DNA of 64,000 bases from the NCBI RefSeq assembly GCF_024978135.1, contig NZ_JANTEZ010000002.1, positions 558,001 to 622,000 of the forward strand, in the 5' to 3' direction. The translations under genes and the position numbers were made by a program. The notes below the pieces were generated by a model. That model was given only the letters and a program-made list of their open reading frames with translations, had not been told where the DNA came from and searched no databases. Numbering within the stretch: the stretch's first letter is position 1; the number at the start of each line of letters is the position of its first letter. Below are positions 40,458 to 47,717 of the stretch, one piece after another. This stretch comes from Herbiconiux gentiana. GTDB lineage: Bacteria > Actinomycetota > Actinomycetes > Actinomycetales > Microbacteriaceae.

Positions 40458-40474
40458 CATCCGCTTTTCGGATG
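40458..40474. promoter_or_regulatory. Candidate LysR binding site
   Basis: CATCCG-CTTTT-CGGATG is a perfect 6-bp dyad containing a T-N11-A core. It overlaps the LysR promoter (TATAGT at 40457-40452) and lies about 45 bp before a TAGCGT box (40519-40524) that could serve the decarboxylase-like gene. Confidence 0.65.
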
Positions 40475-40564: not shown

Positions 40565-41356
40565 ATGACCGATACCGCACTGCTGGCCGGCACCACGCAC
40601 GATCGCACCCGCTACGTCAATGCGATGGGCCCTCGTGGGGTCATCGGGATCATGACCCCGGGGCCGAACGTGGTGGTCGAGAACGAGATGATGGATATGA
40701 GGCCAGCCGGGGTGATCAATGCAGTGGACCGGTATTACGTCCCGAACCAGTCGATCGCAGAGGACGAGGACTGGGCCATCATCATGAGGCACGTCGCCGC
40801 GAACCTCGATGACTCGGTGCATCGCCTGAACGAAGCCCTGATCGATCATCTGATCCTCGGGATGTCTTCGCAGAGCTTCATGGGTGGGGTCAAGGGGAGC
40901 TTCGCCCTGCAGGAACACCTCGAGAACGAGTCAGGCGTTCCCGTAACGATGGGCGCGCAGGCCGCCGAGGCGGCCTTCGATGCGGTCGGTGCTCGGAAGA
41001 TCGCTCTTGTCACCCCGTATTACCCGATCATCGAGAAGCACGCCGCTTCCTACTTCAACGACCGAGGCTACGACGTGGTCCACGTCGAGGGTCTGAAATG
41101 CAAGAGCATCATCGAGGTGGCATCGCAGTCGGCGGAACGACTCTCCGATGCCGTTCTGGTCGCCGACTCGTACAAGCCTGACGCCATCATCCAGCTGGGA
41201 ACGAACCTCCACTTCGCTCAGGTGGCCCAGGACATGGAGAAGAAGCTCCATAAGCCCGTGTTCGCGGTGGGAACCGCGATCTACTGGAGCGCCCTGCGCA
41301 AAATGGGCATCAACGACCAGTACACCGGGTTTGGCAGCTTGCTCGAATCACACTGA
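40565..41356 (+). CDS. arylmalonate decarboxylase/maleate isomerase-like (Asp/Glu racemase superfamily)
   Basis: 263 aa. GVIGIMTPGPNVVVENEMMDMRP begins the fold. HLILGMSSQSFMGG (about residues 95-108) stands where racemases and maleate isomerase have the first catalytic Cys (ACTS), here Met/Ser. The second catalytic position is kept in HVEGLKCKSI (Cys179), the only cysteine in the protein. One cysteine at this second site is the pattern of arylmalonate decarboxylase, so decarboxylation of a substituted malonate is favoured over racemisation (inference). ATG 40565 has GAGGAG 6 bp upstream; an upstream GTG at 40526 is less likely. A MatC-like carrier follows by 50 bp. Confidence 0.8.
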   Translation: MTDTALLAGTTHDRTRYVNAMGPRGVIGIMTPGPNVVVENEMMDMRPAGVINAVDRYYVPNQSIAEDEDWAIIMRHVAANLDDSVHRLNEALIDHLILGMSSQSFMGGVKGSFALQEHLENESGVPVTMGAQAAEAAFDAVGARKIALVTPYYPIIEKHAASYFNDRGYDVVHVEGLKCKSIIEVASQSAERLSDAVLVADSYKPDAIIQLGTNLHFAQVAQDMEKKLHKPVFAVGTAIYWSALRKMGINDQYTGFGSLLESH

Positions 41357-41406
41357 CGCCAGCCCACTCCTTCCGAGCACTTCCTTCTTCTCTTTCGGAG
41401 CCGACG

Positions 41407-42660
41407 ATGCCTCTCGAACTCATCACCATACTCATCCTCGTTCTGGTCTTCGTCGCCTCTGCGCTTCTCAAGATCAACATGGGGGCTATCGCCCTCGTCG
41501 CCGCGTTCCTCGTCGGAACAATCCTCCTCGGCGAAGGCGTCGATGACGTCCTCTCGGGATTCCCGACTGACCTCTTCATCATTCTGGTCGGGGTGACTTT
41601 CCTCTTCGCCATCGCACAGAACAACGGGACCATCGACTGGGTGGTGGAGCGGGCCGTCCACCTCACCGGCGGTCGCACATGGGCCCTGCCGTGGGTGATG
41701 TTCGCCATCGCGGCCGCGCTAGGCGCGGCCGGCGCGGTCCCCCCGGCCGCGGTGGCGATCATCGCACCCACGGCACTCAGCCTCGCGCGACGGAACGGGA
41801 TCTCTCCTTTGTTCATGGGGCTCATGATCGCGAACGGCGTGAGCGCCGGCGAATTCTCCCCCATCGGAGTCTTCGGCATCATCGTCAACGGACTCGCCGA
41901 TCAGGCTGGACTGGCCTACTCCCCCGGGCTCCTCTTCGTCAGCACCTTCGCTTTCAACTTCGTGCTGTGCCTCGTTCTCCATTTCTGGTTCACCCGGCGG
42001 AACGCCCCTCGCATCGAACCGATCGAGACGACAAGCGTCGCACTCACCTCGGCCACCCTGCCTCGCACCACCACTCCTGTCGTGCTCACCCTCGTGGCCA
42101 TTCTCGGGATGGTGGCCTCGGTGCTCTTCTTCTCCGTGAACATCGGGTTCGCTGCACTGACGGCGGCTGTCGTGGTTTCGGTGGTATCTCCCGCCGCAGG
42201 GAAGGCCGCAGTCCCGATGATCGCCTGGCCGACAGTCTTTCTCATTACGGGCATCGTCACCTATGTGGCCCTGCTGCAGCGGGCCGGCGCGATCGAGTAT
42301 CTCGGCGAGGCCGTCGGCTCCGTCGGTATGCCGCTGCTCGCCGCCTTCTTGATCTGTCTGCTCGGCGGAGTGGTGTCCGCATTCGCGTCGACGACCGGCA
42401 TCCTCGGCGCCCTGGTTCCGCTGGCGGTCCCGTTCATGCTGGCCGGTGAGGTGAACAGCGTGACGATGCTGATCGCCCTGGCGATCGCCTCGTCAGTCGT
42501 TGACGCATCTCCGTTCTCGACCACCGGAGCGTTGATCATCGCGAACGTGCCCGCCGCCCAGCGGGATAAGTTGTTCGGTCAGCTGCTTCGCTGGGGGCTT
42601 TCGATGATCGTCGTCGCTCCTTTGCTGGCCTGGGCCATATTCGTACTGCCTGGTTGGTGA
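41407..42660 (+). CDS. MatC-like (malonate/dicarboxylate carrier) SLC13-type permease
   Basis: 417 aa, about 11-12 membrane segments. The N-terminal part (LLKINMGAIALVAAFLVGTILLGEGVDDVLSGFPTDLFIILVGVTFLFAIAQNNGTIDWVVERAV) matches the MatC N-terminal family. GVVSAFASTTGILGALVPLAVPF and ASSVVDASPFSTTGALIIAN are the transport-domain repeats. MatC of Rhizobium carries malonate, which fits the arylmalonate-decarboxylase-like gene just upstream. The pair would import and decarboxylate a malonate derivative under LysR control (inference). The ATG at 41407 is 8 bp after a weak GGAG box. Confidence 0.83.
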   Translation: MPLELITILILVLVFVASALLKINMGAIALVAAFLVGTILLGEGVDDVLSGFPTDLFIILVGVTFLFAIAQNNGTIDWVVERAVHLTGGRTWALPWVMFAIAAALGAAGAVPPAAVAIIAPTALSLARRNGISPLFMGLMIANGVSAGEFSPIGVFGIIVNGLADQAGLAYSPGLLFVSTFAFNFVLCLVLHFWFTRRNAPRIEPIETTSVALTSATLPRTTTPVVLTLVAILGMVASVLFFSVNIGFAALTAAVVVSVVSPAAGKAAVPMIAWPTVFLITGIVTYVALLQRAGAIEYLGEAVGSVGMPLLAAFLICLLGGVVSAFASTTGILGALVPLAVPFMLAGEVNSVTMLIALAIASSVVDASPFSTTGALIIANVPAAQRDKLFGQLLRWGLSMIVVAPLLAWAIFVLPGW

Positions 42661-46108: not shown

Positions 46109-46948
46109 ATGGTTCAGCGAACATGGTTTATCACCGGAGCGACGCGTGGCTTCGGGCGCCTCATGACAGAGCAGCTTCTTTCGAAAGGCGAGCGAGTCGC
46201 CGCCACCGGGCGAGACACCGCAGCCCTCAACGATCTGAAGGAGACCTACGGCGACCAGCTGTGGACCGCAACCCTCGACGTCACGGACACCGCGCAGATT
46301 CGGTCGGTTGTCGAGAAGGCCTTCAAAGATCTCGGTCAAATCGACGTGATCGTCAATAACGCCGGCTACGGACTCTTCGGCGCCGCGGAAGAGCTGACCG
46401 ACGAGCAGATCGAGCACCAGCTCGGCACCAACCTCATCGGCCCCATCCAGATTCTGCGCGCGGCGGTTCCTCACCTGAGAGAGCAGGGCAACGGCCGCAT
46501 CATCCAGATCTCCACCTATGGTGGCCAAGCCACGAACCCGGGAGCCTCGCTGTACCACGCGAGCAAGTGGGGCGTCGAAGGTTTCATGGAGGGCAACGCA
46601 CGCGATCTCGCCCCTTTCGGCATCGGTGTGACCATCGTCGAACCCGGAAGCGCCGCAACCGGTTTCCGGGTGGGCGGCTCGCGACTCCCCGAGCCCATCG
46701 CCGCGTACGACGGCACGCCCGCCGCCATGACCCGAGGCATCCAGAACCCGGCGCTGCCCTCGGTCAGCGACCCTGAAAAGGTGGCGGCAAAGATCATCGC
46801 CTCGGTCGACATCGAGCCGGCCCCACTGCGCCTGGTCACCGGCAGCGACTCGCAGCGGTACGTCCGAGACGCACTCCGCGAGCGCCTGGCGGACATCGAG
46901 TCACAGGAAGCCTCGGCTGCCGAGACCGACATCGAGCACAGCGCCTGA
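46109..46948 (+). CDS. SDR family oxidoreductase
   Basis: 279-aa extended-C-terminus SDR: TGATRGFGR (about residues 9-17), NNAGYG, IIQISTYGG, LYHASKWG and VEPGSAATGF are intact. It is similar in plan to the SDR at 43451. TAGGAG lies about 9-11 bp before ATG 46109. It heads a small operon with a FabG-like SDR (1 bp after the stop) and a YCII-like protein. It is divergent from an MmyB-type XRE regulator, the usual partner of such SDR genes. Confidence 0.92.
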   Translation: MVQRTWFITGATRGFGRLMTEQLLSKGERVAATGRDTAALNDLKETYGDQLWTATLDVTDTAQIRSVVEKAFKDLGQIDVIVNNAGYGLFGAAEELTDEQIEHQLGTNLIGPIQILRAAVPHLREQGNGRIIQISTYGGQATNPGASLYHASKWGVEGFMEGNARDLAPFGIGVTIVEPGSAATGFRVGGSRLPEPIAAYDGTPAAMTRGIQNPALPSVSDPEKVAAKIIASVDIEPAPLRLVTGSDSQRYVRDALRERLADIESQEASAAETDIEHSA

Positions 46949-46949
46949 C

Positions 46950-47717
46950 ATGACCGAAACAGCGGAAAAGGGTGCCGCCGTCGTGACCGGCGGCACCCAG
47001 GGAATCGGCCTTGCAATCGCTCAGCGGCTCATTTCCGACGGCTACCAGGTCGCTGTACTCGGCCGGAACACCACAACTGGTGAAGCCGCCGTCGAGCAGC
47101 TGGGCAATGCCAGCACCTTCATCGCCTGCGACGTATCTGACGAGGTTCGAATCCCGACGGCTTTCGCGGAAGTCGAGAACACATGTGGTCCAATCGAGAT
47201 TCTTGTGAACAATGCCGGGGTTGGGCACCCCGCAACCGTCGACACGCTGACCAGCGCTGATTGGGACGCTCTCATGGCTGTGGATTTGAAAGCGGGGTGG
47301 CTCTGCGCGCGAGAAGCTGCACGCAGCATGCGCCGTCGCGACGGCGGCTCCATCGTCAACATTGCCTCGATCCATGCTCATCTCACGAGGAGAGGGCTGT
47401 TTCCCTACGCTGCCGCCAAAGCAGGCATGTTGGGACTCACGCGATCCATGGCATTGGAACTCGCCCCCGATGGCATCCGCGTCAACGCCGTATGCCCCGG
47501 CTACGTGCGCACTCCTCCGATGCTCGCGCAGTATGAAGCAATGCCAAATCCTGGAGCGGCGTGGGAGCACTTGCAGGGGATCCATCCTCTCGGTCGAATC
47601 GGGGAGCCCCACGAGATTGCAGCCGTGGTCGCCTTTCTCGCTTCACCAGAAGCAGGCTTCGTCACGGGCGCGAGCTGGGACGTTGACGGTGGTCTTGGTG
47701 CCCGGTTCGCATCCTGA
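46950..47717 (+). CDS. SDR family oxidoreductase (FabG-like)
   Basis: 255-aa classical SDR. TGGTQGIG (about residues 13-20), NNAGVG, IVNIASIHAH and YAAAK are present, followed by CPGYVRTP and the C-terminal FVTGASWDVDGGLG. It starts 1 bp after the stop of the preceding SDR. Its last 20 bp overlap the YCII-like gene. It probably acts on the product or substrate of the neighbouring SDR, whose identity is unknown. Confidence 0.92.
   Translation: MTETAEKGAAVVTGGTQGIGLAIAQRLISDGYQVAVLGRNTTTGEAAVEQLGNASTFIACDVSDEVRIPTAFAEVENTCGPIEILVNNAGVGHPATVDTLTSADWDALMAVDLKAGWLCAREAARSMRRRDGGSIVNIASIHAHLTRRGLFPYAAAKAGMLGLTRSMALELAPDGIRVNAVCPGYVRTPPMLAQYEAMPNPGAAWEHLQGIHPLGRIGEPHEIAAVVAFLASPEAGFVTGASWDVDGGLGARFAS

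Follow-up and report, generated by a model that had tools for sequence, protein, structure and literature searches.

A three-gene cassette of Herbiconiux gentiana encodes an Asp/Glu racemase-superfamily enzyme lacking both catalytic cysteines beside a MatC-type carrier

The window analyzed here is a 64,000-nucleotide stretch of Herbiconiux gentiana DNA, in which a LysR-family regulator is encoded divergently from an Asp/Glu racemase-superfamily enzyme and a dicarboxylate carrier, with an inverted repeat in the intergenic region (Table 1). In line with the original prediction, which was made from the sequence alone, translation and alignments confirmed that the enzyme has a single cysteine, the carrier scored above the cut-offs of both Pfam MatC_N (175.8 bits) and CitMHS (86.6 bits), the divergent gene carries the two LysR-family domains, and the proposed T-N11-A site is present, its core recurring in three other actinobacterial cassettes. 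The enzyme was found in two of 16 Herbiconiux species genomes and the carrier in the same two; the unit is therefore accessory in the genus. A pair of short-chain dehydrogenase genes is located near the cassette in both Herbiconiux (positions 46109-47717 of the window and L043:7049-8652 in H. moechotypicola), and the different arrangement of this pair suggests local rearrangement around the cassette.

Table 1. Features of the cassette, in positions of the window
Feature	Coordinates	Strand	Basis and remarks
LysR-family regulator, 316 aa	39494..40444	-	Divergent from enzyme; Pfam HTH_1 and LysR_substrate
Inverted repeat CATCCG-CTTTT-CGGATG with T-N11-A, predicted LysR operator	40458..40474	.	Core conserved in actinobacterial loci
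Enzyme of the Asp/Glu racemase superfamily, 263 aa; Met100 and Gly212 in place of the catalytic cysteines, single Cys179	40565..41356	+	Pfam Amdase, alignments, tree, AlphaFold2 model
MatC-type (SLC13/CitMHS-like) dicarboxylate carrier, 417 aa	41407..42660	+	50 bp downstream of enzyme; Pfam MatC_N and CitMHS

The enzyme scored 66.5 bits against the Pfam Amdase model, which is above the cut-off. Because EutA and maleate isomerases pass the cut-off of this model as well, the match does not prove that the enzyme is an arylmalonate decarboxylase (AMDase; EC 4.1.1.76; PF17645), and it was dropped as evidence of function. The AMDase equivalog model NF052327 gave 65.7 bits against a cut-off of 225, and the top-scoring NCBIfam model, TIGR02990 for EutA, gave 71.8 bits over residues 115-261 against a cut-off of 318. 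An AlphaFold2 model calculated from a 74-sequence alignment (pLDDT 92, pTM 0.90) was matched by Foldseek to the PDB entries 4ix1, 2xed, and 3dg9, with E values of 1e-16 to 1e-12. The solved structure with the best TM score was the Nocardia maleate isomerase 2xed (TM 0.81/0.86); AMDase 3dg9 reached 0.77/0.86, with about 21% identity in the structural match, and Asp, hydantoin, and allantoin racemases appeared lower in the list. Pfam, AlphaFold2, and Foldseek thus place the enzyme, by its two-lobe alpha/beta fold and by sequence similarity, in the superfamily of the AMDase/maleate isomerase group.

Previous work set out 12 criteria for AMDases, among them Gly74 in LMGTSLSF and the proton donor Cys188 in ILLSCGGL, the two positions that determine stereochemistry (PMC4996985). 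We aligned the enzyme with an AMDase-like protein, a segment of the Bordetella AMDase, EutA, maleate isomerases, and actinobacterial two-cysteine relatives. In pairwise and multiple alignments, the first-cysteine position, which is Gly74 in AMDase, is occupied by Met100 in LGMSSQSF (GMSSQSF spans residues 99-105). The second position, corresponding to AMDase Cys188 in ISCGGL, is occupied by Gly212 in IIQLGTNL in the pairwise, family, and reference alignments alike; the phmmer alignment to AMDase has no gap across this block and sets the Gly of IIQLGTNL opposite the donor. Of 11 superfamily references, 10 have a cysteine in the second position, compared with none of 104 family members. The proton-donor position of AMDase is 33 residues beyond Cys179, which lies in another loop, and the Cys179 column holds Ile or Leu in nearly all superfamily references. 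The original prediction was therefore correct that the first catalytic cysteine is replaced, but its reading of the remaining Cys179 as the AMDase pattern fails, since the residue aligns away from Cys188 and three kinds of alignment rule it out as the AMDase cysteine. As judged from these alignments, both superfamily catalytic cysteines are absent from the enzyme.

The loss of the cysteines extends across a family sample of 104 members from several phyla (about 30-100% identity). Position 212 is Gly in all 104, and position 100 is Met in 94, Val in eight, and Ile in two. Seven further residues are also invariant in 104/104, namely Asn35, Ser101, Tyr152, Gln210, Asn214, Trp241, and Arg245. Cys179 is kept in 91 members and is Ser, Val, Gly, Met, Ala, or Pro in the other 13, in which the motif is otherwise kept. 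A tree of 48 rows puts the Cys-less proteins on one side of a branch with an SH-aLRT support of 100, and the close clade holding the window protein also has a branch support of 100; because the tree was built quickly and its reference branches are long, the order of the reference groups in it is unreliable. Actinobacterial members are nested among proteobacterial ones, and this nesting suggests transfer of the enzyme between phyla. The family is widespread, occurring in 34 of 395 genomes of the class, and at least 513 confirmed family stretches were found in the genome collection by a scan with a narrower family alignment, the family-wide one being too diverse. Database records name several members arylmalonate decarboxylase, and a search of a limited set of literature returned nothing on Cys-less members. 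The branch without both catalytic cysteines appears to be a large, uncharacterized part of the superfamily.

Several members of the sample showed features of their own. One subgroup (L023, L026, L028, and L030-L032) has a Cys directly before the invariant Gly (QCGTNL), one residue off the lost catalytic site. Genomes of only 1.0-1.7 Mb from one actinobacterial family (G101, G128, G162, G177, and G190; L020-L022, L024, and L025) carry two to three copies of the enzyme family each, which is surprising given such reduced gene sets. The member at L015 (G409) contains an in-frame TGA and could be a pseudogene or reflect a sequencing error.

If the enzyme were a normal Bordetella-type AMDase with Cys179 as the usual proton donor, the Pfam Amdase match, the single cysteine, the fold similarity to 3dg9, and the neighboring MatC-type carrier would all be expected. 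Dicarboxylate transporters are indeed neighbors in both cases, a TTT system in AMDase clusters (PMC4996985) and a TctC, MatC, or OxlT-type protein here, and the dioxyanion-hole residues T75, S76, and Y126 of AMDase align with Ser101, Ser102, and Tyr152 as conservative counterparts. Against this, Gly212 replaces Cys188, Met100 replaces Gly74, and Thr213 replaces Gly189; the equivalog score falls far below its cut-off, and the Pfam model is nonspecific. The N-terminal motif is P-x-P-N rather than the PPAxG of AMDase, no mandelate racemase neighbor was noted, and the branch is not limited to Proteobacteria, whereas published AMDases are confined to Alpha-, Beta-, and Gammaproteobacteria. We consider a Bordetella-type AMDase highly improbable, and because the AMDase-defining residues are missing, the customary label "arylmalonate decarboxylase" is unwarranted.

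The remaining members of the superfamily with known chemistry were compared in the same manner. Cis-trans isomerization of maleate, citraconate, or a similar unsaturated dicarboxylate would need just one enzyme and a dicarboxylate importer, and the maleate isomerases (2xed, 4fq5; NicE/NdpH) share with the window protein the fold, at the TM scores given above, as well as the P-x-x-N and TPY motifs. However, maleate isomerase works through a covalent succinyl-cysteine (title of PDB 2xed), both catalytic cysteines are missing here, the SDN/SNN segment of the isomerases corresponds to GLKCKS, and a further superfamily member, with two cysteines, is present at 13 or more of the wider-family loci. 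An isomerase is thus unlikely, though better placed than the Bordetella-type AMDase. Racemization or epimerization of a dicarboxylic hydroxy or amino acid, which superfamily membership and the lower-ranked fold matches would allow, is the least probable reading that we considered: two-base racemization needs both cysteines, as in OpaE, where C90 and C199 are both essential (PMC12661438), and the enzyme has neither. Since the required cysteines are absent, the enzyme is in general unlikely to work as a conventional two-cysteine racemase or isomerase. EutA of ectoine utilization differs in having both cysteines (GCTAAS and SCTAL), and no eutBC genes accompany the enzyme, whose neighbors are instead LysR and MatC. 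The best match in both phmmer and Foldseek searches was 4ix1 (OPAG_01669 of Rhodococcus opacus PD630), which by alignment has Gly, not Cys, at both catalytic positions; it differs in sequence (23% identity) and in having no GLKC segment. This PDB entry has no assigned function, and no paper on it was found in the limited literature set. A separate protein annotated as nicE in Arthrobacter sp. ZXY-2 (L126:3761-4519) combines a Gly in the first catalytic position (NGTSGSW) with a Cys in the second, an AMDase-like one-cysteine pattern, and adjoins a dihydropyrimidinase.

The close clade (57-87%) comprises proteins from H. moechotypicola, Mycobacterium sp. PS03-16, genome G379, Rhodoplanes serenus, Paraburkholderia silviterrae, Burkholderia sp. 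OK233, an alphaproteobacterial MAG, Bradyrhizobium sp. LTSP849, and Aquabacter spiritensis. Directly 3' of the enzyme, MatC is encoded in four actinobacteria, an oxalate/formate-type MFS antiporter in the two Burkholderiaceae (531.6 and 451.2 bits; cut-off, 335), and TctC in Rhodoplanes and Aquabacter. In Bradyrhizobium, a cupin and then another MFS carrier follow, and the MAG has a cupin alone. At one locus of the clade (L048), no transporter was found directly after the enzyme, which counts against the module reading. The divergent regulator is LysR in the actinobacteria and GntR-FCD in Rhodoplanes, the Burkholderiaceae, and Bradyrhizobium. Such swapping of unrelated anion carriers, most of them for dicarboxylates, beside the same enzyme suggests that its substrate is an imported dicarboxylate. 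We also checked the nearest plasmid-borne carrier homologues, among which only the one in Paracoccus (about 48% identical) was informative, being located in a matABC-like operon with malonyl-CoA decarboxylase and malonyl-CoA synthase. The neighborhood of this homologue supports malonate as the predicted cargo of the MatC-type carrier. The carrier shares the MatC_N domain with the malonate carriers of matABC operons; unlike those operons, the cassette has no matA or matB, and the carrier is paired with one Cys-less enzyme.

LysR orthologues are encoded divergently from the enzyme gene in H. moechotypicola (66%), Mycobacterium sp. PS03-16 (49%), and G379 (48%). The core ATCCG-N5-CGGAT lies near the LysR start in each of the four actinobacterial regions between the LysR and enzyme genes. 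The window holds one copy (0.22 expected), and the 3.85-Mb genome has the core at six places; it was not found in the proteobacterial close-clade loci. The T-N11-A palindrome is thus well supported, on comparative grounds, as a predicted LysR operator. On the basis of the conserved gene order, the conserved operator, and the carrier relative in a matABC-type malonate operon, the locus is best read as a module dedicated to the uptake of a small, probably malonate-like dicarboxylate and its conversion by one enzyme. The same three observations support the earlier proposal of import and a single enzyme under a divergent LysR, with a malonate-type carrier.

Farther from the window protein, the contexts are more mixed. 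Distant members adjoin FAD monooxygenases related to PnpA/HspB, PuuE-like proteins, isochorismatase-type amidases, HpaB-type hydroxylases, TRAP and ABC importers, SDR proteins, and CoA transferase. These neighbors point to ring-cleavage pathways and perhaps to another reaction there; the contexts are too varied to name a substrate, and an assignment on this basis was dropped. A separate superfamily member was present in 16 of 81 wider-family loci, at least 13 of which show recognizable cysteine motifs in it, so at these loci the Cys-less enzyme has not simply taken the place of a canonical racemase or isomerase, and its reaction may differ from both. At L066, L069, L071, L081, L096, L104, and L112, where the two genes are a few kilobases apart, and in Thioclava (L129:7995-10220), a canonical two-cysteine member and a Cys-less member share one catabolic neighborhood; several loci of this paired type add an FAD monooxygenase, a PuuE-like protein, an aldehyde dehydrogenase, and a metallo-hydrolase. 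It is possible that the paired neighborhoods represent an undescribed ring-cleavage pathway.

A further possibility is that the enzyme carries out some other reaction on a dicarboxylate, as a lyase, hydratase, tautomerase, or retro-Claisen enzyme, through the seven invariant residues listed above. Their complete conservation where both superfamily cysteines are gone, together with the N-heterocycle-like catabolic clusters around wider members, would fit such a reaction, but nothing speaks positively for any particular one. We regard this reading as plausible at well short of even chances, and a different reaction and decarboxylation as about equally likely.

The best explanation, which we likewise advance only tentatively, is a LysR-controlled uptake-and-conversion module, with decarboxylation of a malonate-type dicarboxylate as the leading guess for the conversion because carriers of the malonate and oxalate types accompany the close clade. 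LysR, predicted to bind ATCCG-N5-CGGAT, would control the importer and one cofactor-free enzyme; the importer would bring in a small dicarboxylate, and the product of the enzyme would enter central metabolism without further dedicated genes. In AMDase, the driving force for C-C cleavage comes from a dioxyanion hole and a hydrophobic pocket, with Cys188 serving to protonate the resulting enediolate (PMC12576825). The alignment indicates that the Ser/Tyr dioxyanion elements are kept in the Cys-less family, and although both cysteines are lost in the branch, the putative carboxylate-binding PxxN, Ser101, and TPY are retained. Cys179 sits in the segment that bears V156 and M159 of the AMDase hydrophobic pocket; the N-terminal half of the enzyme aligns too poorly with AMDase to place the pocket residues L40, V43, and Y48. 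In the secondary structure of the predicted model, Cys179 falls in the loop after strand 170-176 and before helix 182-186. Active sites in such folds lie at the carboxy end of strands. The retained carboxylate of the substrate would be held in a dioxyanion hole of Ser101, Ser102, and Tyr152, and the enediolate would be protonated by Cys179, in a loop at the active-site end of its strand, or by water, in place of Cys188. Decarboxylation with either protonator is the leading guess at a probability clearly below one-half. A somewhat more doubtful proposal covers the branch as a whole: its members may use a relocated Cys179, in the segment lining the leaving-carboxylate pocket of AMDase, or no cysteine, for a cofactor-free reaction on an imported malonate-like dicarboxylate. 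The absence of Cys179 from 13 of 104 members argues against decarboxylation through this residue. An AMDase in which Cys188 was replaced and the cysteine moved to position 74 was 20,000-fold slower until its pocket was reshaped (PMC12576825), which calls for caution, as that scaffold pays heavily for losing its proton donor. The originally proposed route, enantioselective decarboxylation of aryl- or substituted malonates, is possible; the cysteine pattern gives no indication of it.

Collectively, these findings indicate that the module is real and is conserved beyond what one sequence could show, and that the earlier catalytic rationale rested on a mis-assigned cysteine. They also reveal that a family from which several proteins are labeled as AMDases in databases lacks the activity-defining residues in all 104 members examined. 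If the family does decarboxylate, it would do so by a cysteine-free or relocated-cysteine solution of interest to biocatalysis, where AMDase engineering has centered on positions 74 and 188; if it does not, a multi-phylum family needs a new function. In either case, the minimal three-gene cassette would offer a direct way to its substrate.
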